Positions 34,253-50,594 of a stretch of DNA of 64,000 nucleotides are shown here, piece after piece. The first letter of the stretch is position 1; the number at the start of each line of letters is the position of its first letter. A program made the position numbers and the translations under genes. The stretch covers positions 1,419,946 through 1,483,945 of the forward strand of contig NC_008618.1 in NCBI RefSeq assembly GCF_000010425.1. Reading direction: 5' to 3'. Under the pieces are notes generated by a model. That model saw only the letters and a list, made by a program, of their open reading frames with translations, was not told where the DNA came from and ran no database searches. The DNA is from Bifidobacterium adolescentis ATCC 15703 (lineage in GTDB: Bacteria > Actinomycetota > Actinomycetes > Actinomycetales > Bifidobacteriaceae).

Positions 34253-34418
34253 ATCTCAATACACGTATCCCATATGGGATACGACCGGTAGTGAAGGTCC
34301 GGTCGTACACGCTTATCGTATTTCAATCCACACATCCCGTATGGGATGCGACGCACCGCGTCTACGAATTTCCGTGATCGTAGAAATTTCAATCCACGCA
34401 TCCCGTATGGGATGCGAC
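34253..34418 (-). CRISPR. Relic CRISPR array with a second repeat family (3 repeats, 2 spacers)
   Basis: Three 33-nt repeats lie at 34253-34285, 34320-34352 and 34386-34418, separated by spacers of 34 and 33 nt. They share the flanks of the main array (TTTCAATCCAC and the GCGAC end, read on the plus strand), but the hairpin arms are CATCCC/GGGATG instead of CTCTCC/GGAGAG. The first repeat is the most altered (ATCTCAATACAC) yet its arms GTATCCC/GGGATAC still pair. Orientation equals that of the main array, so this is the oldest, trailer end, now cut off by an insertion element. Confidence 0.85.
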
Positions 34419-34647
34419 TTGCCACGATTAAACATACATCCTCCTTTCGTGTTTTGCTTCAATTTTTCTTAAGCAATTTCTGCACTGTTTTTCCGCAGTA
34501 TGGGGCCGCTGGTTTCCATCAGGAACTGCACCATATGACCGCCCAGACGAAAACAGGCACCAGCCCGCCGTGCCTGTATATTCCCGAGACGCAGCCCAAA
34601 AACGAATCCGCCGGCTGCAACCGGCGGCGCTCGGGAAGGAAAGGACG

Positions 34648-35535
34648 ATGGCGATACCGATGCCCAAACAGCAAGATATCAGGAGACTGGACCGTCAGGG
34701 AGTGTCCAGGTCGGAGATCGCGAGGAGGCCGGACGTGGACCGCGCCACGGTCGCGAAATACGCCGACATGGACGACATGACGCCGAAACCGCCCACGGAC
34801 AGGCGCCGCGGCTCCAAGATCGACCCGTACGCGGCGTTGGTCGACGGATGGCTCGAGGCCGACCGCAGGCCGCCACGCAAGCAGCGCCACACCGCCAAAC
34901 GCGTGCACGACAGGCTCCGCGCGGAGACCGAGTACGACGGCGAGTACACGACGACGCCGGAGTACGTGAGACGCTGGCGCGAGGCGAACCGGAGAGGTTC
35001 CGACGGATACGGCGAGCTCGTCTGGGCGCCCGGCGTCGCGCAGATCGATTTCGGCGTGGCGAAGGCCCGCATCGCCGGCGAGCTCGTGGACGACCACTGC
35101 CTGGTCGTCACGTTCCCCCATTCGAACATGCGGTACGTGACGAGCCTGCCCGGGGAGAACGCGGAATGCCTGTGCCACGGGCTGGTCGAGGTGTTCGAGC
35201 ACATCGGCGGAGTCCCGCCAGTGATCGTCATGGACAACGCCACCGGCGCGGGACGCAGGAACGCGAGGGGCGAGGTGACGCCCGCCGCGGTGCTCGACGT
35301 GTTCGACATCAAAAAATCGCTGTCACACAAGGGCAACCCCTACGACAACGCCGTGGTCGAATCGACGAACAGGCCGCTGAAGAAGGAGCTCGTGTACCGG
35401 AACCACTGCACCACGATCGAGCGACTGAGGCATGACCCCGACGACTACGTGTGGTGGTCCGACAACCAGCGGCTCCGCTCCGCCCTCGGATACCGGAGCC
35501 CGAAGGAATTCACCGAACAGGGACTCGTCCTCTAA
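34648..35535 (+). CDS. Chimeric transposase: IS21 IstA N-part fused in frame to IS3 OrfB C-part
   Basis: Residues 1 to about 220 are IstA-like: a helix-turn-helix (GVSRSEIARRPDVDRATVAKY), then the DDE-domain strand GVAQIDFG and IVMDNATGAG. From about residue 220 the sequence switches to the end of an IS3-family transposase: KSLSHKGNPYDNAVVEST, KKELVYRNHCTTIE, RLRSALGYRSPKEF. The IS3 part supplies a DDE glutamate (in VVEST) but from a different enzyme. The open frame across the join is unusual. GGGAAGGAAAGGACG precedes the ATG. Transposition activity is unlikely. Confidence 0.75.
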   Translation: MAIPMPKQQDIRRLDRQGVSRSEIARRPDVDRATVAKYADMDDMTPKPPTDRRRGSKIDPYAALVDGWLEADRRPPRKQRHTAKRVHDRLRAETEYDGEYTTTPEYVRRWREANRRGSDGYGELVWAPGVAQIDFGVAKARIAGELVDDHCLVVTFPHSNMRYVTSLPGENAECLCHGLVEVFEHIGGVPPVIVMDNATGAGRRNARGEVTPAAVLDVFDIKKSLSHKGNPYDNAVVESTNRPLKKELVYRNHCTTIERLRHDPDDYVWWSDNQRLRSALGYRSPKEFTEQGLVL

Positions 35536-35568
35536 GAAACCGTCCAACACGCTGTTGCCAATCCACTC

Positions 35569-36003
35569 GTGCTCTACGAGCCCGTCGGCACCGGCAAGAC
35601 GCATCTCGCGGTCGCGTTGGGCAGGCTCGCGTACATGCGCGCGATACCTGTCAGGTTCTTCACCGCGACCGGGCTGCTTATGATGCTGCGCCGCGCGAAA
35701 CGGGAAGACCGGCTCGACACGGAGCTCCGGCAGATCGCCAGGGCGAGGCTCCTGATCATCGACGAGTTCGGCTACATGCCGATCGACAAGGAGGGCTCCA
35801 GGTTCCTGTTCCAGGTCATATCGGATTCCTACGAGACCCGGAGCATGGCCCATATCATGAACATCGAGTTCTCCGGCTGGGGGCGCGTGCTCGGCGACAA
35901 GAACATGGCCGCCGCGTTGATCGACCGCACCGTGCACCACGGAAGGCTCGTCAGATTCGAGGGAGGCTCCTACCGTAGCGAGCACGCCCTCATGACCAGA
36001 TAG
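35569..36003 (+). pseudogene. IstB ATPase, 5' truncated
   Basis: The frame encodes the last 144 residues of an IS21 IstB helper ATPase: Walker A EPVGTGKTHLAVALG, LLIIDEFGYMPIDKEG (Walker B), and the C-terminal GDKNMAAALIDRTVHHG. The N-terminal domain, about 90 residues in normal IstB, is missing and replaced by the IS3 right end at about 35536-35568. It cannot function as usual. Confidence 0.8.
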
Positions 36004-36145: not shown

Positions 36146-39100
36146 ATTTCAATCCATGCTCTCCGTAAGGAGAGCGACCCCTCTACTGGTAAGGAGACTG
36201 ATTATGGTCGATATTTCAATCCACGCTCTCCGTAAGGAAAGCGACCCGACCGCGAGGTAGTCGGATGATTGCATGGCGATATTTCAATCCACGCTCTCCG
36301 TAAGGAGAGCGACCACCGCGCCATGCAGTATTTCAGTACTACCCCGTTATTTCAATCCACACTCTCCGTAAGGAGAGCGACATAGCGAGGCCGTCAGATA
36401 CGAGCTTCCCAAACTCATTTCAATCCACGCTCTCCGTAAGAAGAGCGACACTCCAAAAACCACTGCATACACTGTTACACCTAATTTCAATCCACGCTCT
36501 CCGTAAGGAGAGCGACATGGAAACCCCGCGCAATTCCGATAATTACGATATTTCAATCCACGCTCTCCGTAAGGAGAGTGACTTACCGTGACGGGCACCG
36601 CCACGTACGTCAACCCATTTCAATCCACGATCTCCGTAAGGAGAGCGACACCGGAGAGCGTCGGCAAATGGCGAAACTATTATTATTTCAATCCACGCTC
36701 TCCGTAAGGAGAGCGACAATATCAGAGGCGCATGCCAAGCGCAACTCAGATATTTCAATCCACGCTCTCCGTAAGGAGAGCGACCTCTAGTGTCCTAAGT
36801 TATAGGCGAGACTTGTGATTTCAATCCACGCTCTCCGTAAGGAGAGCGACGATTCTCTATGGTGATACTCATGATTCGTCCTTAATTTCAATCCACGCTC
36901 TCCGTAAGGAGAGCGACATATCCTGCGTGACCAGCTCGTCACGCTGCGGCAGATTTCAATCCACGCTCTCCGTAAGGAGAGCGACTGCCCGTGACGCGAA
37001 TCGCGTAGCCGGTCAAACCATTTCAATCCACGCTCTCCGTAAGGAGAGCGACGCCTGGGCGTGATGGACGTGGGCGACTCGACCGTGATTTCAATCCACG
37101 CTCTCCGTAAGGAGAGCGACGCGTGGAAGCAGCTTTTCGTCAGCTATGGCGCAAATTTCAATCCACGCTCTCCGTAAGGAGAGCGACCGTATCCTCCCTG
37201 ATCGTCCGCGGCCAGGTCGGAATTTCAATCCACGTTCTCCGTAAGGAGAGCGACGGCCACCGTCATTCGGATATGCGGCAGGCTTGGAATTTCAATCCAC
37301 GCTCTCCGTAAGGAGAGCGACCATTGAGAGCGTGGAGTCGCGGGAAACTCACGATATTTCAATCCACGCTCTCCGCAAGGAGAGCGACCTGGCGTCCATT
37401 GACGATGGAACAGTCCGAAGCGATTTCAATCCACGCTCTCCGTAAGGAGAGCGACTTCGGGTTCCGGGGGAGTGTGGCCGGGAAGCACATTTCAATCCAC
37501 GCTCTCCGTAAGGAGAGCGACACGCGACTAAGACTGCCCACCCACCATTAAAGGAATTTCAATCCACGCTCTCCGTAAGGAGAGCGACGTCATCGATCAT
37601 CATGCCGTGGCGAACTTCACCGATTTCAATCCACGCTCTCCGTAAGGAGAGCGACCGGGTTCAGCTGCGCCTTGGTCAGGTCGGCGCTATTTCAATCCAC
37701 GCTCTCCGTAAGGAGAGCGACGTTTCGGGAAATGCAGCCGCACATGACGCAATAAGCAATTTCAATCCACGCTCTCCGTAAGGAGAGCGACGCGTATTGC
37801 GGGCGAATCATGTCGCCATGCTCGGCATTTCAATCCACGCTCTCCGTAAGGAGAGCGACGCAGAGTATTATGGCCCGCTTCGGTGCCTTCGATATTTCAA
37901 TCCACGCTCTCCGTAAGGAGAGCGACCCAGGCACAGGACGGCACCAACCGCACCGTCATGATTTCAATCCACGCTCTCCGTAAGGAGAGCGACCAGGCCG
38001 CCGACCATGTCGGACACCAACTGCATATTTCAATCCACGCTCTCCGTAAGGAGAGCGACGCATGCCGACTGGCAGGGAATGGCTCCGTTCTGATTTCAAT
38101 CCACGCTCTCCGTAAGGAGAGCGACTTGACAACGACGGTATCCTGCGCTGCGGTCTTGACATTTCAATCCACGCTCTCCGTAAGGAGAGCGACATACAGG
38201 CGCGGGAAAGCGCCATAACCGCGTACGAATTTCAATCCACGCTCTCCGTAAGGAGAGCGACCCCGCGTTCTATTGGAACGCCAAAAGTCAAGAGATTTCA
38301 ATCCACGCTCTCCGTAAGGAGAGCGACAAGAGTGTCTGAGAGATTTCCAGAGTGTCATAATTTCAATCCACGCTCTCCGTAAGGAGAGCGACTTCGCATG
38401 TGCTGGGATTCTTCCTCTTCATCCATATTTCAATCCACGCTCTCCGTAAGGAGAGCGACTCGCTTGATGCTTATGGCGTGGCTCAGGCTTGATATTTCAA
38501 TCCACGCTCTCCGTAAGGAGAGCGACTGTCCGCCCCTGCCTCATTGTAGTTGGGGATATAATTTCAATCCACGCTCTCCGTAAGGAGAGCGACGTGCAAT
38601 GAGCGTTGACGTATTCAACGCGCTGAATATTTCAATCCACGCTCTCCGTAAGGAGAGCGACTAGCACGAACTGGGAAGAGGCGGATGCCAGCAAATTTCA
38701 ATCCACGCTCTCCGTAAGGAGAGCGACTCGAATATGAAGAACGCACCTCGTACATCGACATTTCAATCCACGCTCTCCGTAAGGAGAGCGACCGGCAGAC
38801 ACCACCGGCCGCCATGCGCTCCATTGGCATTTTAATCCACGCTCTCCGTAAGGAGAGCGACCTGCTGCGCGAACGTCGGAATGCCGGACACGTTATTTCA
38901 ATCCACGCTCTCCGTAAGGAGAGCGACTTTGGAGCACGGCTGGATCGGAGAGAACCCCATTATTTCAATCCACGCTCTCCGTAAGGAGAGCGACGCCACA
39001 CCGAGCGCAACGGGTCGCTGCTGACCCTATTTCAATCCACGCTCTCCGTAAGGAGAGCGACGTGCGCCTCTTCTGGGAAGAGGTCGTAGACGAAGCCATT

Positions 39101-41890
39101 TCAATCCACGCTCTCCGTAAGGAGAGCGACCAACCAAGTGGCCGAAGCGCTGCTCGGAGCCGGCAAATTTCAATCCACGCTCTCCGTAAGGAGAGCGACC
39201 GTTCCTCGCGGGAATTGTAGAGGCGAGTGTCGGAATTTCAATCCACGCTCTCCGTAAGGAGAGCGACCCTTCCACGATGCGATCACCTCGGGCGTGAAGA
39301 CATTTCAATCCACGCTCTCCGTAAGGAGAGCGACTGGATGTCTGCACGACGTACCTGCACCGGTATAAATTTCAATCCACGCTCTCCGTAAGGAAAGCGA
39401 CCATGCAAGCGCAAGAAAAACTTCGTCAACAGACGATTTCAATCCACGCTCTCCGTAAGGAGAGCGACAAATACGCAAAGTCAAGATGCTGGTGCTGCGA
39501 GAATTTCAATCCACGCTCTCCGTAAGGAGAGCGACCCGCTCCCCACGCATCGGCGTCCATCTTGCGCTTATTTCAATCCACGCTCTCCGTAAGGAGAGCG
39601 ACGGTGGCGCATGAGGTTGTGGTGGCGGCGGGAGATATTTCAATCCACGCTCTCCGTAAGGAGAGCGACTCTGCCAGAAAGTGAATCTGAAAGCTCAATG
39701 GCGATTTCAATCCACGCTCTCCGTAAGGAGAGCGACGCGGCGCTGGTGAACCGTATCGGCGGTACTTATGTATTTCAATCCACGCTCTCCGTAAGGAGAG
39801 CGACGCGGCGCTGGTGAACCGTATCGGCGGTACTTATGTATTTCAATCCACGCTCTCCGTAAGGAGAGCGACTCTCCCTCTACGCCGCAATATTTGCGAT
39901 TGCCGAATTTCAATCCACGCTCTCCGTAAGGAGAGCGACGCGCATTCAAAAACGGCTTGTCCCCAACGGTTAGATTTCAATCCACGCTCTCCGTAAGGAG
40001 AGCGACCACCTGGAAGTAATTGCTGGTGCATTCCGGATTATTTCAATCCACGCTCTCCGTAAGGAGAGCGACCAGGCGCGTGGCTATCGCGCCATTTGCG
40101 AGACATTTCAATCCACGCTCTCCGTAAGGAGAGCGACCCAATAAACAGCGTAAAAATGACGGGACATGGTAATTTCAATCCACGCTCTCCGTAAGGAGAG
40201 CGACCATCCGCCATGATTCAACGCCATCCTTCATCTCATTTCAATCCACGCTCTCCGTAAGGAGAGCGACCAACTTCCAGCAGGAATACGTTCCAAGATA
40301 AGGAATTTCAATCCACGCTCTCTGTAAGGAGAGCGACCAACTTCCAGCAGGAATACGTTCCAAGATAAGGAATTTCAATCCACGCTCTCTGTAAGGAGAG
40401 CGACTCTTGGGGAGGCTGACTGACATGACGCGCAGTAGATTTCAATCCACGCTCTCCGTAAGGAGAGCGACCGACGCTCCTGCGGGTAACGCTCGTAATC
40501 AGGCTATTTCAATCCACGCTCTCCGTAAGGAGAGCGACCGCCACGTCCGACCATCACGCCGACCTCGTCGCGATTTCAATCCACGCTCTCCGTAAGGAGA
40601 GCGACCATCGCCGCGCAGCAGTCGCGCATCGTTGAACTCATTTCAATCCACGCTCTCCGTAAGGAGAGCGACCAACTACAGCCTCCCGCTCAACCTGAGT
40701 GACCTGATTTCAATCCACGCTCTCCGTAAGGAGAGCGACCTGGTATCACCAATTTTCCAACCTTCATGACGGTATTTCAATCCACGCTCTCCGTAAGGAG
40801 AGCGACCGGCCTCGTACGCGACGTGGTCGTCGCCATTGCAAATTTCAATCCACGCTCTCCGTAAGGAGAGCGACCACACGCCACATTCATCAACGCCATC
40901 AAGGGAGAATTTCAATCCACGCTCTCCGTAAGGAGAGCGACCACGGACGGCTGGTATACGGCGGCCGAGGTACGGATTTCAATCCACGCTCTCCGTAAGG
41001 AGAGCGACCTCGCCGACCGGCTCACCGACCTGACCAACCTCGAATTTCAATCCACGCTCTCCGTAAGGAGAGCGACCCTCTTCGGTCAGGCTAAACGCCT
41101 CGTCCAAGGTATTTCAATCCACGCTCTCCGTAAGGAGAGCGACCTTGACTGGTTCGAATTGCATGTGCGCGTATGGTAGATTTCAATCCACGCTCTCCGT
41201 AAGGAGAGCGACCCAAAAGCGTCTGAGAGACTTCCAAGGTGTCATAATTTCAATCCACGCTCTCCGTAAGGAGAGCGACCCCACGGCTCAACACATGGCT
41301 CCGCGACCAATGGGATTTCAATCCACGCTCTCCGTAAGGAGAGCGACCATGTACTCCGCCCATCGTCCCATGGAGTCTCGATTTCAATCCACGCTCTCCG
41401 TAAGGAGAGCGACCGGACTGGCATGATTCGGCTGACGTCACTTATGGAATTTCAATCCACGCTCTCCGTAAGGAGAGCGACCGTCGGTTGGTGCCGCATC
41501 AAGATGCACCTTGTAATTTCAATCCACGCTCTCCGTAAGGAGAGCGACCACCGCACAGCCAACGATGTCGCCAATACGAAAGCATTTCAATCCACGCTCT
41601 CCGTAAGGAGAGCGACCTATCGGATAACTAAGGGATGTAACCGTTTGTACCATTTCAATCCACGCTCTCCGTAAGGAGAGCGACCCTGTACGGTGCTGCC
41701 CCAATACAGATTTTCCTTTTTATTTCAATCCACGCTCTCCGTAAGGAGAGCGACCTTCCAAATCATCGAGACGTTGCGCGATCTCGTGAGATTTCAATCC
41801 ACGCTCTCCGTAAGGAGAGCGACCTGGACGCTCCCCAAGCCGAGGGGGTGGCTTCATATTTCAATCCACGCTCTCCGTAAGGAGAGCGAC
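36146..41890 (-). CRISPR. Type I-C CRISPR array, 86 repeats and 85 spacers
   Basis: I counted 86 copies of a 33-nt repeat from 36146-36178 to 41858-41890, with spacers of 32-37 nt. In the transcribed (minus) direction each repeat starts GTCGCTCTCC, has a perfect CGCTCTCC/GGAGAGCG hairpin and ends GTGGATTGAAAT, the typical type I-C pattern. Transcription starts in the leader near cas2, so 41890 is the newest end. Repeats at the old end carry mutations (copies 1, 2, 4, 5 and 8), as do 17, 19, 41, 49, 63 and 64. Two repeat-spacer units are duplicated: spacers 39737-39771/39805-39839 and 40271-40304/40338-40371. Confidence 0.98.
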
Positions 41891-42282: not shown

Positions 42283-42573
42283 CTATATCATCATCACATC
42301 ATTAACCGGCAAACTCCGTTCATGCCCATAACGCTCAATCCTATCCGCATATCGAGCGCCAAGTTTATAAAAGCGCAGACTGTCCTCATCAATATTGGCA
42401 ATCTTCAACAAATCGTGCACCAACACCAGATAATCGGAAGGACTCACCGAGCATTCGAAAACACTGTTCTGTACACGCTGTCCGTATTTCATGCATGTCT
42501 TCGCCACCAAACGAAGACGACGCTTCCCCTCAGGGGTTTCCGTACTCACATCGTACGCAACCACAACCATCAT
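42283..42573 (-). CDS. cas2: CRISPR-associated endonuclease Cas2
   Basis: A 96-residue Cas2 of the type I-C branch; with Cas1 it forms the spacer integration complex. The first strand MMVVVAYDVSTETPEGKRR carries the conserved Asp8, and RRLRLVAKTCMKYGQRVQNSVFEC gives the ferredoxin-like core. GGAGGTGAAAAACC precedes the ATG. It is the last gene of the cas operon, 67 bp after cas1. Confidence 0.95.
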   Translation of the reverse strand: MMVVVAYDVSTETPEGKRRLRLVAKTCMKYGQRVQNSVFECSVSPSDYLVLVHDLLKIANIDEDSLRFYKLGARYADRIERYGHERSLPVNDVMMI

Positions 42574-42640: not shown

Positions 42641-43672
42641 TTACTTCCACATAAATGGCGGGTAATCATCAAGATCACCCCGCAACGATCGAGCTAGCAG
42701 CAGCGCTTGCACATACGGAACCAATCCCCACGAAATTTTTTCTTGCAGGAACGGATGAAGAATCTGATCACTCTTCTTTTTCTGCCACGCCGTAAGCACT
42801 TTCTTCCGCCCGAAATCAGACAGCAGCACCCCGCCATTCTCCCGTATTTCAAAATCCCCCGGCTTAACAGCGCCTGTATTAACCAATGTCAGAACGAAGC
42901 GGTCAGCCAACACCGGGCGAAACTCTTCAACTAGATCCAATGCCAGAGAGGCTCTCCCCGGCCGATCCGTATGCATAAAACCAACATACGGATCCAACCC
43001 CACACCTTGCAAAGCCGCAATGCAATCATTCGTCAATATGGAGTAGCAAAAAGACAATAATGCATTCAGCCTGTCCAGCGGAGGTCTCCTCGACCTACTG
43101 GTGAAAAAGAAATCATCTTTATTCTTCAGAACCAAATCGTCAAAAGCGTAGAAATAATCTTTGGCAGCAAGCCCTTCGACACCCCTCAACTCATCAATCG
43201 TCAAGCTTTTTCGAGCTTTTGACAATGCCGCCGACAATTTGCCGCTCTGCTCGGCAAGTCGGTCGATGTTCACCCGCAAAGCATGATCACGTTTCGTGCG
43301 TTCGAGCACCCATTTCGCATTGTAAAGCTTGCCAACAATGAAAGATTTCGCATAACGCAAAGATTTTTGTTCGTCATCCGCGACTCGAAATTGTTCACGG
43401 CGAAGTAGCACATTACGATTCTCCTCCCCTAACACGGAACAGTAATAATGACCTCTCGGTGAATAGAATGCCATAGAAACGCCCAGTTTGCCGCAGCGCC
43501 CCATAAGAGCAGGCGAAGCACCCTTATACGAGAAACACATGATTCCTTCAATTGACCGTAATGGCACTTTCGCCAAGGTTTGGTCATTCTGATAAATCAC
43601 AACATTATCGTTCTCCAAGGCAAGATAGGCATCTTCTGTCATCACAAACAACGTGTTTAACAGCTGCTTCAT
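42641..43672 (-). CDS. cas1: CRISPR-associated integrase Cas1 (type I-C)
   Basis: The metal-dependent integrase that inserts new spacers at the leader end. The 343 residues equal the usual I-C length. The N-terminal beta domain (NTLFVMTEDAYLALENDNVV) is followed by the helical catalytic part with ELRGVEGLAAKDYF, GFMHTDRPGRASLALDLVEEF (His and Asp/Glu ligands) and LLSDFGRKKVLTAWQ. The ATG at 43672 overlaps the cas4 stop (GTGATG); a GTG at 43675 is an alternative. Confidence 0.95.
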   Translation of the reverse strand: MKQLLNTLFVMTEDAYLALENDNVVIYQNDQTLAKVPLRSIEGIMCFSYKGASPALMGRCGKLGVSMAFYSPRGHYYCSVLGEENRNVLLRREQFRVADDEQKSLRYAKSFIVGKLYNAKWVLERTKRDHALRVNIDRLAEQSGKLSAALSKARKSLTIDELRGVEGLAAKDYFYAFDDLVLKNKDDFFFTSRSRRPPLDRLNALLSFCYSILTNDCIAALQGVGLDPYVGFMHTDRPGRASLALDLVEEFRPVLADRFVLTLVNTGAVKPGDFEIRENGGVLLSDFGRKKVLTAWQKKKSDQILHPFLQEKISWGLVPYVQALLLARSLRGDLDDYPPFMWK

Positions 43673-44349
43673 CACTCCCCGCTTTCCTTGAGCCGTTCTT
43701 CGATATATGCTTTTGCCGATTTCATCTTCCGTAATTCAGGCAGGCACAAATCCCGTAGAGAACATGCCGAACACGATCTGGTCTGTTTCACTTTGGGAGT
43801 CCATCCACGGGAGAAAAGATCATGCATTTGCAAGAAGTCAGCTTCGACCATGTTGCGAAGATCTTCGTCAAATTTTACCCGCTCACGACGTTTTGTCTGC
43901 TGATAGAACAAAGCACCTTCAGGAATATCACACGCGAGCATTTCTTCCAAGCACATCGCTTCCGCGCATAGCTGTAAACGATCAGCATCAATCGTTTTGG
44001 ATTTGCCGTGTTTGTATTCAATCGGATACGGCAACCACAATCCATCTCTTCCGTGAAGCGGAACACCATCATTAGACTTATGGAATTCCACAACATCACA
44101 GGCTCCAGTTATGCCGAGCGCTCGCGAATAGACTCTCAAATCCCGCATGATCAGCATATCGCCGCGAGATTCAGAAGCCGCATAATCGTGGGCGCGTTCA
44201 TGTTCCAGATGCCCCGCTGTGGTCAGATAATTTTCTGACCACAGCTGCTCGATATGAATAAGCGCCCATTGACGCTTGCAGAATGAGAAATGCTGAATAC
44301 CCGAAAGGGCCAGCCAATCTGCTTCTGAATAACCATCTGGCCCTTTCAT
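43672..44349 (-). CDS. cas4: CRISPR-associated exonuclease Cas4 (type I-C)
   Basis: Cas4 trims prespacers and helps select PAM and orientation together with Cas1-Cas2. The 225-residue protein has the four iron-sulfur cysteines: one in SFCKRQW near residue 24 and three in SCSACSLRDLC near the end. RecB-type nuclease residues appear in GACDVVEF, YPIEYKHG and QLCAEAMCLEEM. The ATG at 44349 is chosen because GAGAGG lies 7 nt upstream; an ATG at 44364 lacks a ribosome site. Confidence 0.93.
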   Translation of the reverse strand: MKGPDGYSEADWLALSGIQHFSFCKRQWALIHIEQLWSENYLTTAGHLEHERAHDYAASESRGDMLIMRDLRVYSRALGITGACDVVEFHKSNDGVPLHGRDGLWLPYPIEYKHGKSKTIDADRLQLCAEAMCLEEMLACDIPEGALFYQQTKRRERVKFDEDLRNMVEADFLQMHDLFSRGWTPKVKQTRSCSACSLRDLCLPELRKMKSAKAYIEERLKESGE

Positions 44350-44383
44350 ATAAGCACCTCTCATCTAGGCTTGGACGCTGTAA

Positions 44384-45229
44384 TCAGCGGCCTTCGATTA
44401 CTTCGTAGCGAAGGCCTGGAATGGAAGCGTCATCTACATTCACGGTTCCATCCGCGTCAACGGAAACGGAACGATGAACTTTGGCCGAAGAATACTGGCC
44501 CCCCTTGCAGTTATGTGCAAACCAGACGACATCCAGCACTTCCATCGATCCCGACGGACGTGCCGAACTCTCATCATTCTCGAACAGCGTGACCAGAGCT
44601 TCCTTGATTTTCTCTGCATCCTCTGCGCTGAAACCTGTTCTTTCCGCCAGCTGGGGGCTAATGCTTCCATAAGTTACATATACGGCACGTCCAGAGACAC
44701 GATACTTCATGCCCATGGTGTCGGATGATTTTTTACCGGAATCCGTAGTCTCGCTGTTGACCGATTTAGTGATTTGCACATCGTCAATTGCGATGGGATT
44801 AATGGAGAATGCCGGCTGAATCGAGACCGGTCCGCGTACGCCAATCGAAACCTCATCGGTATCCTTGGCCTTCTTAAAGGCGAAAACCTGACCAAAGGAC
44901 CGCACATCAAGCCAACGCTCGCACACCTTACCGAAGACTACATTCTTCTGCTTCTGCTCATCCTTCGGCAAGGTCTTCAGATATGTATTGAACCTGTCCG
45001 ACAGCGATTTGGCACCATCATCGGAACGATCATCAGACTGCACAAAGACTGATTCTCCTGCATCCTGCAGACGGTTGCGGATCTTCCTCTTCAAGGCGAC
45101 GTCGGAAACCTCACCCAGCCCTTCTGACGTCGTTCTCGGACGATTACCATTCAACGGATCACCATTGGGATTTGCGTTATTCACCGCAAAGGCAATCGCA
45201 AAATCAATCTTATTTTCCAAAGCTGCCAT
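44384..45229 (-). CDS. cas7: Cascade backbone protein Cas7c (Csd2)
   Basis: Cas7c polymerises along the crRNA spacer in the type I-C effector. The 281-residue protein opens with the family signature KIDFAIAFAVNNANPNGDP and contains GNRPRTTSEGLGEVSDVALKR in its first 45 residues, then VRGPVSIQPAFSINPI and WFAHNCKGGQYSSAKVHR. AAGGAG lies 9 nt before the ATG at 45229; a GTG 6 nt upstream is an alternative. It follows cas8c by 53 bp. Confidence 0.95.
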   Translation of the reverse strand: MAALENKIDFAIAFAVNNANPNGDPLNGNRPRTTSEGLGEVSDVALKRKIRNRLQDAGESVFVQSDDRSDDGAKSLSDRFNTYLKTLPKDEQKQKNVVFGKVCERWLDVRSFGQVFAFKKAKDTDEVSIGVRGPVSIQPAFSINPIAIDDVQITKSVNSETTDSGKKSSDTMGMKYRVSGRAVYVTYGSISPQLAERTGFSAEDAEKIKEALVTLFENDESSARPSGSMEVLDVVWFAHNCKGGQYSSAKVHRSVSVDADGTVNVDDASIPGLRYEVIEGR

Positions 45230-45282
45230 AATCACATACTCCTTACTTATAGGCGATGAATCGACTCTGATAATTACAAAAG

Positions 45283-45669
45283 TCAGTTGTTGCTATTATT
45301 TTTTTGAGAAATCTCTTGCGCTTTACGCTTAGATGCTCTCCGCTGACATGAATATCCCAGAAGAAACATTGGCGAAAGCGCCTTATTATCTTCAAAATCC
45401 CCTTCCTTAAACAAAGCCATAACATCGTCGACTTCATTACGGAACCAGGACCCACCGTTTGCCGATTTAAGGTATGGCGTAAGCTGCTTCCACAATGTGC
45501 CCCACGTCGTATAGGGCTTCGCCGTGAAATTGCTCATCAATTTGATTGCATTGGTTGGACGGTCCTTGACTCCCTGCTTACGCAAGACGCTTTCCTCGAA
45601 ATTGTCGGCAAGCGCCAACAACCTTCCATACAGATAATCACGATCATCTCGATTCGGTTCAAGATACAT
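45283..45669 (-). CDS. cas11: Cas11c small subunit, translated from inside cas8c
   Basis: Type I-C effectors need a small Cas11 subunit made from an internal start in the 3' part of cas8c. Here an ATG at 45669, in the cas8c frame, begins MYLEPNRDDRDYLYGRLLAL, and a perfect AGGAGG (45681-45686) lies 11 nt upstream inside the coding sequence. The product would be 128 residues and helical, the size known for Cas11c. This start lies downstream of the cas8c frameshift, so Cas11c should still be made even if full-length Cas8c is not. Confidence 0.7.
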   Translation of the reverse strand: MYLEPNRDDRDYLYGRLLALADNFEESVLRKQGVKDRPTNAIKLMSNFTAKPYTTWGTLWKQLTPYLKSANGGSWFRNEVDDVMALFKEGDFEDNKALSPMFLLGYSCQRRASKRKAQEISQKNNSNN

Positions 45670-47185
45670 GGTTATTACGTCCTCCTGTCTATGCTGTTTT
45701 CTTGTTTCATCGATATAGTGTTTTTTCCATAGGCTGCAAGCGATTTCAAAATCACGACGCCAGACCCTGATATTGTCGTATCCCATAGGCTTGGTGACCT
45801 TATGACATGCGGCATTCAAAATCGACATGGGAAATTGCGCTCCGCCAAACATACATTCAATAAGCCGTTCCTTCACATCTTTCGCGAAGCGTTTATAGCT
45901 CTTGCTGCTCCTATCAGACGTGCCACAAGCACAGTTGATAATGTCAGTGAACGATGGAGCCCCTTCATACTGAACGACATTAACCCGCTCAGCTCCCTCC
46001 ACGATGCTTTTTTTGAAAAATGTAAGAGGCCAAGCTGCATCGACATGCCATTGCAGTATGCGCTTAATGTATTCGTCCTTCTGAAGCTCGCAGTAGAACG
46101 TTACGCCTAAACGCCCCGTTGTAGCAGCATCCAAGATGACGACAACCATCGGATCATTGTGCGTCTTCGAGATCCTCCGCACCCTCATATCCTCTCAGAA
46201 CCCTTGAGAAAATTTTTGCATACTGAACATTTGTCGCATTTAGCGCATCGCTGATGTCGTCATGAAGCGCTTTGGATTCGTCAGCTATTGGCGAGAGGAA
46301 ATCATCAAAATCAAAAGATCCTGACTGCGGATTCAATACGGGCTTTTCCTCAGGTCTTTTTATTGCCCAGACAACGATAGCCTGATTGCCTGTCAACGTT
46401 CCATGATTATTCACCAACCACCGCAAAGTGGAGTTGATTTTCTGAGAGGACGCACTATCAACCAGCAAAGCTTGTTCCTTACTGGAAAAACGTCCACGAA
46501 AAGTAAAATTCGTAGAATCATTAGCAGACAATAGCTTGGCATTGGCATCGGAGCTAACTACCTTTTTAGGGAAATTAGTGGTTGGCGTATAAAGATCCTC
46601 GCCAAAAACATCCTTCCCCAGCCTGTGTTGAGAACGCTGCAGATACGCAATCCAACGATTCCGAATATCAACGTCATTCGATAAATCAGAATCTTCGAGT
46701 CCGATTTGAACCTCGAAACAAACACCGGCTTTATCGTCCTTATCCGTTAGCTCCACGCCATAATGCGCAGCAGCCTCGCTGATGCTATGCTCCGACACAC
46801 ACTTGAAAACAGCTTCAAGCTTGGCGTCATCACCTTTCCATTTTGCAAGCTGCTGCAAGTACATGCTCGTCTTCTCAGGACTGCGCCCACTATCGACGTA
46901 CTGTAACTGATCAAACAGCGGATGCGGTACTGGCTTAATGGTCCTTCCCATCGATTCCTCTGTACAAGGAATGATGATGGTGCTCTTTCTCTTGGCAACA
47001 CCTCTGATACAACCATTCGCGTCCACAAGCACTGTCAGCGAAACCGGAAGAGTCGTATGCCCGTACGGAATCAGCGCCCTCTTCGCAGCGTCAGCGTCAC
47101 CATCTTTCTCTGCACTATGAGGAGTCTGACCAGACGCCCCCTGTATCATTTCGTAGGTAGTAAGCAAATTACCAAACAGACTCAT
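45283..47185 (-). pseudogene. cas8c: Cascade large subunit Cas8c (Csd1), frameshifted
   Basis: Cas8c recognises the PAM and recruits Cas3. The 5' part (46154-47185) encodes 343 residues from MSLFGNLLTTYEMI to FSRVLRGYEGAEDLEDAQ and stops at TGA. The 3' part continues in the next frame with NDPMVVVILDAATTGRLGV, WHVDAAWPL, GYDNIRVWRRDFEIACSLWK and MYLEPNRDDRDYLYGRLLAL up to 45283. Joined, they give a normal length near 633 residues. The shift needs one base around 46160-46172. An ATG (MVVVILDAATT) 4 nt past the TGA could allow reinitiation and two-chain Cas8. A sequencing error is also possible. GGAGGAG precedes the start. Confidence 0.85.
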
Positions 47186-47188
47186 CGT

Positions 47189-47911
47189 TCACTCCTCCTC
47201 TACTGATGTAACGTTCTTGCCTAAGTTGAATTCTTTAACGTTCAAACCATGCCTAACGATGTGCCGATCGAGAAGCGGCGAATCCGGTGATTCGAATCTG
47301 ATAACGCCATCCTTCATAATCGGCATCCAGAAGCGCGAAATCAGATTATGGTCAGGATTCTCATCCGGATACGAGAATCCATGAAACATATATCCCATGT
47401 TCCATTCTCCATAAGAGTCGTAGAACCCTTCTCCCCCTCCGAATTCACACGGTTCGACATAAGCTTGGCATTCCCTAGCACCCAGAAAAATATCGCGACG
47501 GCCTCCTTGACGCACGGACCTCATCGCAATGTTGTGATGTTTGTTTTCATCACGATCATCAGCAAGTTCCTCCCTCAGGTCGTTCCATTCAAAATGCGCA
47601 AGAACTTGATACCTCACATCCTTTAAATATGTGTAGTATGAAAGATCATTTTTAACATTTTTTTTCTTGGGCTGGTACACAATAGTGCGAACACCTCTGC
47701 TCTCCGTCTGAATCTTATTCATGACTCGCACAGCATCAATGACCCACTTAAACGTGGGCTTCCAATAGATGCTCTCCGTAATCCCCTTCAATGCTTGATA
47801 CGTTGGCACCTGATACGAGTACTTCTCTCCACCAACACGCGTGGCGACTTCCGAGAACAATGCGTATCTACCCCAAACTTCATATTCGATTGAATTCCGA
47901 TGCCGTTCCAT
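47189..47911 (-). CDS. cas5: Cas5c, pre-crRNA processing endoribonuclease of type I-C
   Basis: In type I-C, which lacks Cas6, Cas5c cuts each repeat at the base of its hairpin and then stays bound to the 5' handle. The 240-residue protein starts SIEYEVWGRYALFSEVATRVGGEK and has the family stretches YQVPTYQALKGITESIYWKPT and RQGGRRDIFLGARECQAYVEP. AAAGGAG precedes the ATG at 47911; an upstream in-frame start at 47938 lacks a ribosome site. Its stop lies 1 bp before the cas8c ATG region. It is the first gene after the cas3 terminator, so it needs its own promoter. Confidence 0.95.
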   Translation of the reverse strand: MERHRNSIEYEVWGRYALFSEVATRVGGEKYSYQVPTYQALKGITESIYWKPTFKWVIDAVRVMNKIQTESRGVRTIVYQPKKKNVKNDLSYYTYLKDVRYQVLAHFEWNDLREELADDRDENKHHNIAMRSVRQGGRRDIFLGARECQAYVEPCEFGGGEGFYDSYGEWNMGYMFHGFSYPDENPDHNLISRFWMPIMKDGVIRFESPDSPLLDRHIVRHGLNVKEFNLGKNVTSVEEE

Positions 47912-47973
47912 ATAACTCCTTTGTAAACGGTCTTCCAAAGCTATTGGTTAATAGCGTACCACAAAAAATTTCT

Positions 47974-47989
47974 TATGCCATATATAGAA
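47974..47989 (-). promoter_or_regulatory. Putative guide target with TTC PAM upstream of cas5c
   Basis: On the minus strand TTC (47989-47987) is followed by TATATATGGCATA (47986-47974). These 13 bases match the first 13 bases after the repeat-like sequence at 48051-48083, except at position 6. The site is 63-78 bp before the cas5c start, in AT-rich DNA where the operon promoter must lie. TTC is the known PAM of type I-C systems. No perfect -35/-10 pair could be fixed here. Confidence 0.5.
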
Positions 47990-48050
47990 TCTAATAGGCG
48001 TTTCGCGGCATACGCTTTATCGACTATCCTTGTGCCTGTGGGATTCCCAC

Positions 48051-48117
48051 TGTCATCGCGCCAAGAGCGATGTGGATTGAAAATATATTTGGCATATGTG
48101 TTGCCCCCCCCCCCAAA
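48051..48117 (+). ncRNA. Putative crRNA-like regulatory RNA (degenerate repeat plus guide), CreR/CreA-like
   Basis: A lone repeat-like sequence lies antisense to the cas operon. CATCGC/GCGATG (48054-48059 and 48067-48072) form a 6-bp stem with a 7-nt loop, and TGGATTGAAA (48073-48082) equals the 3' handle of the array repeats; GTC also opens it. The bases from 48084 (TATATTTGGCATATG) act as a spacer with a partial, PAM-flanked match upstream of cas5c. A -10-like TATCCT (48025-48030) and a GTGGGA-T-TCCCAC palindrome (48038-48050) precede it. Cas5c could process it, and a partly matching guide would bind without cutting. Expression is unproven. Confidence 0.5.
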
Positions 48118-48165
48118 AAAAAAACTACGGCTCTCTCGCATACTCCTTGGAGCTTGCGAGAGAGC
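48115..48165 (-). terminator. Terminator after cas3, next to an 11-bp G tract
   Basis: On the minus strand, 12 bp after the cas3 stop, GCTCTCTCGCA and TGCGAGAGAGC (48130-48165) form an 11-bp stem capped by CTCC/GGAG, then GTAG and T10 (48115-48124). It is followed by G11 (48104-48114). It should end cas3 transcripts and separate cas3 from the cas5c operon. The paired homopolymers could vary in length. Confidence 0.8.
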
Positions 48166-48176
48166 ACTCATCCTTC

Positions 48177-50594
48177 CTACATCAGCAGGAGAGGCATCTC
48201 CGCCTCCCGTACTACGCCGTACTTGTCGTTGTAGTATTCCTCATTCAGCAAGAAAACTCCAAAATCCTCATTTGCTAACGAGATTGCATGCTTCCTGGCC
48301 AAACCACGATAGTCATCATCGAACAGGGAAACCGTATATTCCTGCAACCGCCTTAGCACTGAGATTTTCTCGGGTAATTCTCCCCTGTGGAGCATATCAA
48401 GTAACTCAGTCGCCTGACCATACGGGACCACAACATTGTGCGTGACATCCGGAATTACATGGAAGTTATCGCTAACCGTCTGAAAAGCCTGAGCAAAGCA
48501 CAAACCGTACTTTCCTCCCGTAGTATTCGTGAATTGAGATCGATCACATTCGTTGAAGGACAACAGATCATAAGCAGTCGTCGCTCCCTCCGCCCTTCCC
48601 CGAATTGGGCAATCCGTATAGCCTCCTTTACCATTACCGTCCTTCTTACGGAGAAGCATGTCATAGTACTGTTCCAGAATATTCGAAGACAGCAAATCCT
48701 TTCCTGGGTAGTTCTCCATAATCTGTAAAGTGAGCTGCTTACCCATTGCGATATCCGGCAGATACCTTTCCATGCTGTCTTCAGCTTTCAATGGATAGAC
48801 ATACACATTCTTTGGTTCTACCGATTCACCATTCCTATTGCAGCGCCCAGCGGCCTGCATAATACTGTCCAGACCAGCCATCGCCCTGACCACGCAAGCA
48901 AACGAAATGTCAACACCTGCCTCAATAAGCTGTGTGCTCACACAAATCACAGGTTTCGGATTGCCTGGATCAAGCAGCGCACCGATTCTGTTCAGACAAT
49001 CCGTTCTATGCCTTCCACACATGGCAGTACTGAGATGAATCAGCTCAAACTCATGATTCACATCAAGTCGTTCCAAGCATTGGAAAATCTCACGCGCTTC
49101 CTTTTTCAGGTTGACGATTGCCAAGCAATTGCCGTTCTCCCGCGCCTGCTGATAAATAATCTGCCCTAGTTCATCGCAGCTTTTATTTTCAGTTGAAGCA
49201 ACGATTCTTGTACGTCGAAGCTTGTCTTCATAGCTTTCCGTTTCAGCAATAAGATCAGGCTTTTCCGAAAGGAGCAGATTCTCTCGTTTGGTTTTTTCAA
49301 GTAACGGCTGCGTCGCAGAGCACAAAAGAATCGTTGAATTGGTAATCTTCGATAGGAAGCTGACGATCTCATTGAACAGATTGATTGTGTTCATCGGCAA
49401 CGACTGTATTTCATCAAAAATGATGACACTGTCGGCCATATTATGGAATTTCCGGAGTTTGGTTCCGCGAGCAGACATGACAGTCTCAAGGAATTCCACC
49501 ATAGTGGTAACAATTATCGGATTGTCCCAACGCTCTGCCGCCAACTTGCGCTGATGCTCCCCGGCATCCTCAAACTCACTCGACGCATTATCCGCTACAT
49601 CAGCGGAACGTTGCATACCTGCAGTGGAGTAATGCTCCAATAGAACATCGCTATCGGCGCTCAGACCAAGTACATCTCGGAAAGTCTTTGCCGTCTGAGT
49701 TGTGATAGACAAATATGGAATCACGTAAATGATCCGGTGCTTTCCTGTCTTCAGCGCATGATGCAACGCAAAATTTAGCGACGCCAACGTTTTACCGCCG
49801 CCAGTCGGAATCGACAAACGATAAATCCCGGTTTCCCGCGCCCCCGCCAAACAACACTGTTCATTAATCTGATGTCTTATCCTGTTTATTTCCGAACTCG
49901 AATCAAAAGATCTCATGCTTTTATCGAGTCGACTAATCAGATTCTGCCAATCAACCGCATTAGGCCGATACTGTTTTCGGGTCTCGAAACAAGCAGCATC
50001 CGTCCTATCCGCATCCACCAGTCGCGAATAAATCAGTTTAACGAGCAAACCTAGATAGAAGTATATGCTATCTTTCGACAGCCTCAGCGATTTAATTTTC
50101 TTCAGGAAACAAGCGATATCTTCCGCTGAACCTCGGAAATTCGATTGCAGATCGAGCGCCAAACCGTTAAGCCCCCGCTTGATTTCTTGATACGCATACT
50201 TCTCGTTGCTTTTGTCCGACTCCGTGAACCCAAGAAGAAAAGCTCTATTCCCGGACTCGTCAATGCAATCAGGAAGACCTCCGTGATGTTTAGAAATGGC
50301 AAGCTCAAGAATTTCCTTTGCTATCTCTTCAATTTCCCCTTTCGACTCGAAAAAATCATTGACGACAAACGCCCCTTGACGGGCATGCTGCACATCTCCC
50401 CTATGCCCATCATCCGATAACAGATATGTTTGGAACTGCTGAGCAACCTTCCCGACATCATGCAAGACGGCTGCCGTACGTGAAATATCAGCGAATTCAT
50501 CCTCGAAACCACTAGCCAATCTTCCTGTACCATGAAGATGGTCATACAAAGTCTGAGTATTGCCTTCCTCATCTTTACGAGCTAATAGAACCAT
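48177..50594 (-). CDS. cas3: CRISPR-associated nuclease-helicase Cas3 (type I-C)
   Basis: Cas3 is recruited by Cas8c to target DNA, nicks it and degrades it processively. The 805-residue protein has an N-terminal HD nuclease (VLHDVGK with His45-Asp46, DVQHARQ near 70, KHHGG near 104) and an SF2 helicase with PTGGGKT at 263-269, DEIQ at 394-397 and CSAT at 425-428, then VCVSTQLIEAGVDISF (motif V region) and AAGRCNRNGE (motif VI). All key residues are present. AAAGGAG precedes the ATG. It has its own terminator, so it forms a separate unit from the other cas genes. Confidence 0.95.
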   Translation of the reverse strand: MVLLARKDEEGNTQTLYDHLHGTGRLASGFEDEFADISRTAAVLHDVGKVAQQFQTYLLSDDGHRGDVQHARQGAFVVNDFFESKGEIEEIAKEILELAISKHHGGLPDCIDESGNRAFLLGFTESDKSNEKYAYQEIKRGLNGLALDLQSNFRGSAEDIACFLKKIKSLRLSKDSIYFYLGLLVKLIYSRLVDADRTDAACFETRKQYRPNAVDWQNLISRLDKSMRSFDSSSEINRIRHQINEQCCLAGARETGIYRLSIPTGGGKTLASLNFALHHALKTGKHRIIYVIPYLSITTQTAKTFRDVLGLSADSDVLLEHYSTAGMQRSADVADNASSEFEDAGEHQRKLAAERWDNPIIVTTMVEFLETVMSARGTKLRKFHNMADSVIIFDEIQSLPMNTINLFNEIVSFLSKITNSTILLCSATQPLLEKTKRENLLLSEKPDLIAETESYEDKLRRTRIVASTENKSCDELGQIIYQQARENGNCLAIVNLKKEAREIFQCLERLDVNHEFELIHLSTAMCGRHRTDCLNRIGALLDPGNPKPVICVSTQLIEAGVDISFACVVRAMAGLDSIMQAAGRCNRNGESVEPKNVYVYPLKAEDSMERYLPDIAMGKQLTLQIMENYPGKDLLSSNILEQYYDMLLRKKDGNGKGGYTDCPIRGRAEGATTAYDLLSFNECDRSQFTNTTGGKYGLCFAQAFQTVSDNFHVIPDVTHNVVVPYGQATELLDMLHRGELPEKISVLRRLQEYTVSLFDDDYRGLARKHAISLANEDFGVFLLNEEYYNDKYGVVREAEMPLLLM

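Follow-up and report, generated by a model that had tools for sequence, protein, structure and literature searches.

Why does the type I-C CRISPR-Cas locus of Bifidobacterium adolescentis ATCC 15703 carry, in addition to its main array, repeats whose hairpin stems differ in sequence and are still paired? We addressed this question in a window of 64,000 nucleotides, the whole stretch of DNA that was analysed, from a genome that consists of one contig of 2.09 Mb. The window contains a type I-C operon on the minus strand in the order cas3-cas5c-cas8c-cas7-cas4-cas1-cas2, followed by an array of 86 repeats (Table 1). Twelve of these repeats are variants, with one single change apiece. Two spacers of the array are each doubled in tandem (39737-39839 and 40271-40371; GCGGCGCTGGTG... 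and CAACTTCCAGCA...), representing unit duplications. An IS21-family element lies between the main array and three further repeats, here called the relic. Its istB gene lacks the first 94 profile positions. We also looked for the boundaries of the IS and for a target-site duplication, but only a remnant of the element survives, and its other copies are partial or 70-94% identical; the relic and the main array may once have been continuous.

Table 1. Coordinates of the features of the type I-C locus, numbered from the first nucleotide of the window.
Feature	Position	Strand	Details
Relic repeat R1, oldest	34253-34285	-	GTCGTATCCCATATGGGATACGTGTATTGAGAT; also in sister genome G101
Relic spacer 1	34286-34319	-	34 nt; same spacer in G101
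Relic repeat R2	34320-34352	-	GTCGCATCCCATACGGGATGTGTGGATTGAAAT
Relic spacer 2	34353-34385	-	33 nt; absent from G101
Relic repeat R3	34386-34418	-	GTCGCATCCCATACGGGATGCGTGGATTGAAAT
IS21-family remnant	34570-36003	+	between relic and main array; istA 34570-35535, istB 35569-36003
Main type I-C array	36146-41890	-	86 repeats of GTCGCTCTCCTTACGGAGAGCGTGGATTGAAAT
cas2	42283-42573	-	TIGR01573
cas1c	42641-43675	-	TIGR03640
cas4	43672-44364	-	TIGR00372
cas7c/csd2	44384-45235	-	TIGR02589
cas8c/csd1	45283-47185	-	frameshift-broken: ORFs 46154-47185 and 45283-46188
cas5c	47189-47938	-	TIGR01876; start probably ATG at 47911
Target upstream of cas5c	47974-47986	-	TATATATGGCATA; 12/13 match to lone-repeat spacer
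TTC PAM of target	47987-47989	-
Lone degenerate repeat	48052-48083	+	GTCATCGCGCCAAGAGCGATGTGGATTGAAAA; repeat part of the putative CreR-like RNA
CreR-like guide	48084-48096	+	TATATTTGGCATA...
Strong hairpin after guide	48130-48165	.	on the minus strand precedes a T10 run
cas3	48177-50594	-	TIGR01587/TIGR01596

Relic repeats beyond the main array

The relic had been singled out by an earlier, sequence-only reading, which claimed that both hairpin arms of its three repeats had changed together, and that the oldest copy was again paired. Both claims are borne out by folding. Specifically, the minus-strand stems read GCATCCC/GGGATGC in R3, GCATCCC/GGGATGT in R2 (with one G-U pair) and GTATCCC/GGGATAC in R1, against GCTCTCC/GGAGAGC in the main repeat; that is, CATCCC/GGGATG stands in place of CTCTCC/GGAGAG, and relic and main repeats all form 8-bp hairpins of one shape. 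Three of the eight stem pairs are altered on both arms, and the loop is altered as well. The repeats at 34386, 34320 and 34253 differ from the main repeat at 7, 8 and 12 positions, respectively, and fold at -14.6, -12.7 and -12.6 kcal/mol, compared with -14.6 kcal/mol for the main repeat, with 0, 1 and 3 out of 200 shuffles folding equally well. No intermediate stem occurs among the 86 main-array repeats, whose variants are single changes only. The relic has the composition of a type I-C array, with direct repeats of about 32-33 nt, a paired stem, the GTGGATTGAAAN 3' end (R1 with two changes in the 3' handle) and spacers whose lengths fall within the type I-C range of about 33-35 nt.

A comparison of the relic spacers with phage sequences, which had been proposed as a check, returned no match in exact scans of IMG/VR or in GenBank phages. 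Against plasmids, the spacers gave 72-73% matches to two Paenibacillus plasmids, with no annotated feature beneath. The second relic spacer holds an inverted repeat, TCTACGA...TCGTAGA.

The absence of any array with the CATCCC-type repeat had been named as evidence against the sequence-only account. This holds in part: of 112 Bifidobacterium and 395 other actinomycete genomes, none has the exact CATCCC repeat in an active array, and the sole other occurrence of the repeat among them is the same relic in a sister genome (G101), with the same oldest spacer, one unit fewer and flanks that are 99% identical. This sister genome has no Cas5c. At its locus (L007; G101:C5:1-20000), the array is on the other side and stops within the second half of the IS, a layout that suggests an IS-linked rearrangement or a misassembly. 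The single GTCGCACCCC repeat of genome G010 has a different stem; this I-C type repeat (GTCGCACCCCTCACGGGGTGCGTGGATTGAAAT; L008, 5936) stands in a genome that gave no Cas5c match.

Two origins had been offered for the relic, namely selection for the stem in place and descent from another type I-C array, and the latter fits the surveyed loci better. The Bifidobacterium I-C repeats are known to differ in sequence between species with their structure kept, and the PAM is 5'-TTC-3' (PMC7284854). In the active Bifidobacterium arrays we examined, the stems are TCTCC/GGAGA, TCCCT/AGGGA, TCCC/GGGA and ACCCC/GGGGT with constant outer bases; these arrays are like the relic in their 8-bp stem, but none has its CATCCC stem. 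In 80 I-C loci from other bacteria, the stems are likewise varied yet paired. One locus (L055) carries a TCTCC-type array of 46 repeats and, about 0.5 kb on, an ACTTC-type array of 19 in the same orientation, which is the layout of the window, and five others (L049, L071, L073, L037 and L047) have at least two arrays each with differing repeats. Distal second families of repeats are thus common, and there is nothing unusual about the relic: at one locus, repeat families can follow each other with stems that differ in sequence and are paired in each case. Such families may differ yet stay paired because Cas5c should require a paired stem followed by GTGGATTGAAAN and no particular stem sequence.

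The alternative is that the relic repeats arose in place from the same array as the main repeats, through successive compensated pair changes that selection for the Cas5c stem would have favoured. It draws on the likeness of relic and main array in orientation, spacer length and flanking bases, and on R1 and R3 being one compensated stem pair apart (C-G to T-A). However, the flanking bases are common to most I-C repeats and therefore do not prove common descent of the two arrays, and the differences span three stem pairs and the loop with the intermediate absent, the 12 variant main repeats being single changes. We regard compensatory evolution in place as unlikely, and clearly favour the view that the relic is left over from a type I-C array that was either older or a second one. 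The CATCCC repeats would be its leader-distal remnant, severed from the main array by the decayed IS21-family element.

The lone repeat and its target

Flanked by cas3 and cas5c, the lone repeat has the opposite orientation to the arrays and points away from cas5c. As the sequence-only reading had stated, it has yet another paired stem (CATCGC/GCGATG), which differs from the array stem, and its handle is kept. That reading had treated it as one more relic; instead, it is an element in its own right, with a guide that can pair to the sequence ahead of cas5c. Downstream of the handle (GATTGAAA plus one base), the sequence reads TATATTTGGCATA, while the minus strand before cas5c reads TTC-TATATATGGCATA, about 75 bp ahead of the cas5c ATG. 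The sole mismatch between guide and target is at position 6, and the PAM and target together occur a single time in the genome.

Additionally, we tested the stem pairing of 13 Bifidobacterium lone repeats by shuffling in an ungapped test. Seven reached p<0.04 and G000 gave p=0.05, while pairing was not significant in G037, G097, G070, G098 and G083. These mixed results suggest that the stem of the lone repeat is under selection, at least in some of the species. Further downstream, 11 C followed by 10 A lie between the guide and the hairpin (48104-48124), a candidate for length variation, and the hairpin with its T10 run probably ends cas3 on the minus strand.

Recurrence across type I-C loci

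The relation was defined as the handle, one base and the guide on one side, and TTC followed by the target on the other, with identity at positions 1-5 and 7-11 (a 10/10 seed). In a first scan, which covered 700 bp before cas5 in 96 non-redundant I-C loci, 12 loci carried a 10/10 seed and TTC at the expected register. The controls gave none at ten other registers, at most two with any other trinucleotide, and an expectation of 0.09 from guides and targets swapped between loci. When the whole locus was scanned, adding the region upstream of cas3, the relation was found in 22 of the 96 loci from three phyla, against a total of two TTC matches at the ten other registers.

The match along the guide has a characteristic shape. 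Positions 1-5 and 7-11 have a match fraction of 1.0 by definition, while over the 22 loci the fraction is 0.14 at position 6, 0.27 at position 12 and 0.18 at position 18, of which positions 12 and 18 lie outside the selection. The fraction is 0.77-0.95 at positions 13-16, 0.59 at 17 and 0.5 at 19, then near background. Since every sixth guide position is flipped out in Cascade (PMC5904413), the dips at 6, 12 and 18 are a Cascade signature. The guide sequences are unrelated between most species with the match kept, so guide and target have changed together.

Within Bifidobacterium, the element is present in 15 of the 18 Cas5c-bearing genomes, 12 with a 10/10 seed and three (G040, G060 and G095) with 9/10. 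Eight Bifidobacterium loci without the element before cas5 served as a prediction test, in which the region upstream of cas3 was searched. It was present there in five, with a 10/10 seed in L115, L116, L119 and L120 and 9/10 in L117, and none was found in L114, L118 and L121, the one 9/10 pair of L118 looking like chance. In B. commune (L027), the element is likewise upstream of cas3. Outside Bifidobacterium, 14 I-C loci carry the relation, including those of Bacillus, Aeribacillus, Aquibacillus, Brevibacillus, Evansella, Paenibacillus, Pullulanibacillus, clostridial genomes and a deltaproteobacterial MAG. No match was obtained in 3 of the 18 Cas5c-bearing Bifidobacterium genomes nor in most non-Bifidobacterium loci, some for missing flanks. 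The targets sit upstream either of cas5 or of a large ORF whose position and size identify it as cas3. In several Bacillota the target is several hundred bases from the gene, and in L055 and L074 ORFs lie in between, which by eye look like transposase pieces. Upstream of cas3 in L057 and L065, we also observed CreR-like pairs in which the PAM is TTT rather than TTC and position 6 is again mismatched.

These data bear directly on other explanations of the lone repeat. That it is a stray or decayed CRISPR repeat without function, matching the cas5c upstream region by chance, is strongly disfavoured, to the point of being negligible: solitary repeats do exist, as in G010, which has one I-C repeat and no Cas5c match, but 22 loci combine a fixed register, a TTC PAM and a 10/10 seed and dip in match at 6, 12 and 18, with a chance expectation of 0.09 (in the upstream set), and of the 18 Bifidobacterium genomes with Cas5c, 15 have the element on the side of cas5 or cas3 where the promoter would be. 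It is scarcely more credible that spacer and target form an inverted repeat, the two halves of an operator to which a conventional repressor protein binds. The two are indeed on opposite strands in most loci, 56-172 bp apart; however, their sequence is wholly different between most species while the match persists, the match begins exactly one base past GATTGAAA beside TTC with a 6-nt period, and in L021, L055, L071, L096, L098 and L105 spacer and target have a direct instead of an inverted arrangement.

A CreTA or CrePA module, in which a crRNA-like RNA would repress a toxin instead of the cas genes, shares the same RNA logic, and some Bacillota loci do have extra sequence between the target and cas5. 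We consider this very improbable as well: in the window, the roughly 75 bp from the target to the cas5c ATG are non-coding DNA with no gene between, leaving no toxin for the target promoter to drive, and the intervening ORFs of L055 and L074 resemble transposase pieces by eye. Where the gap from target to cas5 is longer, we looked for a toxin gene within it and found none that was obvious.

A proposed CreR-type circuit and its relatives

The layout of the element, the match of guide and target, the PAM, the fixed register, the 6-nt period and the presence in many species, all seen directly, point to the lone repeat being a CreR, a cas-regulating, crRNA-like RNA; judged by its sequence, it would be transcribed, processed and repressive. 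At the sequence level it has the traits of one. It is a solitary degenerate CRISPR repeat beside the cas operon, its guide is partly complementary (12/13, with TTC) to a candidate cas promoter beside the PAM of the system, and the pairing is limited to 13 nt in the window and decays after about position 17 over the 22 loci. Guide and target are also conserved and co-varying, in 15 of 18 Bifidobacterium genomes and in 14 other loci. Taken together, we consider it highly probable that the relic comes from a second or older I-C array and that the lone repeat is a CreR-type element repressing the cas operon.

In the proposed mechanism, a short RNA beginning with the degenerate repeat would be cut by Cas5c to yield the handle and guide, and the guide would pair over about 12 nt with the sequence ahead of cas5c, next to the TTC PAM. 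Cascade loaded with the CreR-like RNA would thereby occlude the promoter. A consensus scan of 47900-48260 found no sigma-70-like promoter on either strand, and the occlusion is therefore argued from position only. Cas3 would not be expected to cut at this target, because the guide-target pairing is short. The cas5c-cas8c-cas7-cas4-cas1-cas2 operon would keep its own expression low as long as Cascade is not diverted by crRNAs or anti-CRISPRs. The window strain itself may no longer run this circuit, because its cas8c is frameshifted (near 46154-46188). In B. commune cas8c is a single 651-aa ORF, and of 20 Bifidobacterium genomes in which Cas8c was matched, 17 have it in one long frame, that of G085 being broken too.

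CreR-type autorepression is probably a widespread, so far undescribed part of type I-C systems, present in most Cas5c-bearing bifidobacteria, in Bacillota and in one deltaproteobacterial example, acting at the leading promoter of the operon, with guide and target coevolving except at positions 6, 12 and 18. If so, a built-in guide RNA would explain limited cas expression, anti-CRISPRs or strong crRNA expression are predicted to raise it, and deleting or mutating the lone repeat would offer a simple handle to raise Cascade for editing. The natural guide/target pairs also provide an evolutionary read-out of base-pair use by type I-C Cascade, with a seed at 1-5 and 7-11, extension to about 17, and skips at 6, 12 and 18.

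CreRs are cas-regulating RNAs resembling crRNAs, reportedly described in Liu et al. 2023, Cell Host Microbe 31:1481. In these systems, an ectopic repeat gives rise to a crRNA-like RNA that directs the effector to the promoter of its own cas genes, and cas expression tracks the free effector, rising when crRNAs or anti-CRISPRs occupy it (PMC12737573, PMC12948488). The window element is alike in having an ectopic repeat by the cas genes, limited guide complementarity to the cas promoter, and no toxin (PMC12737573, PMC13131331). One review lists CreRs for types I-B, I-E and V-A (PMC13131331), and another for type I and V-A in general (PMC12737573). In contrast to the reported I-B, I-E and V-A cases, the window element is of type I-C, with Cas5c rather than Cas6 as the would-be processor; its status as the first CreR in type I-C is provisional.

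The CreTA/CreA systems of type I-B in haloarchaea share with the window a degenerate ectopic repeat, a short Cascade-guiding seed and a TTC PAM (PMC9458426, PMC10989794), and I-B CreA, with an 11-bp seed, brings about repression but neither interference nor priming (PMC10989794). What CreA represses is a toxin RNA, whereas targets of the window type lie directly upstream of cas5c or cas3. A Cas effector likewise acts as repressor through a partial guide in the case of tracr-L with type II Cas9, which differs from the window in type, effector and RNA. The scaRNA of type II Cas9 resembles the window element in the same use of a Cas effector and a partial guide, and differs from it in type, effector and RNA (PMC9458426).
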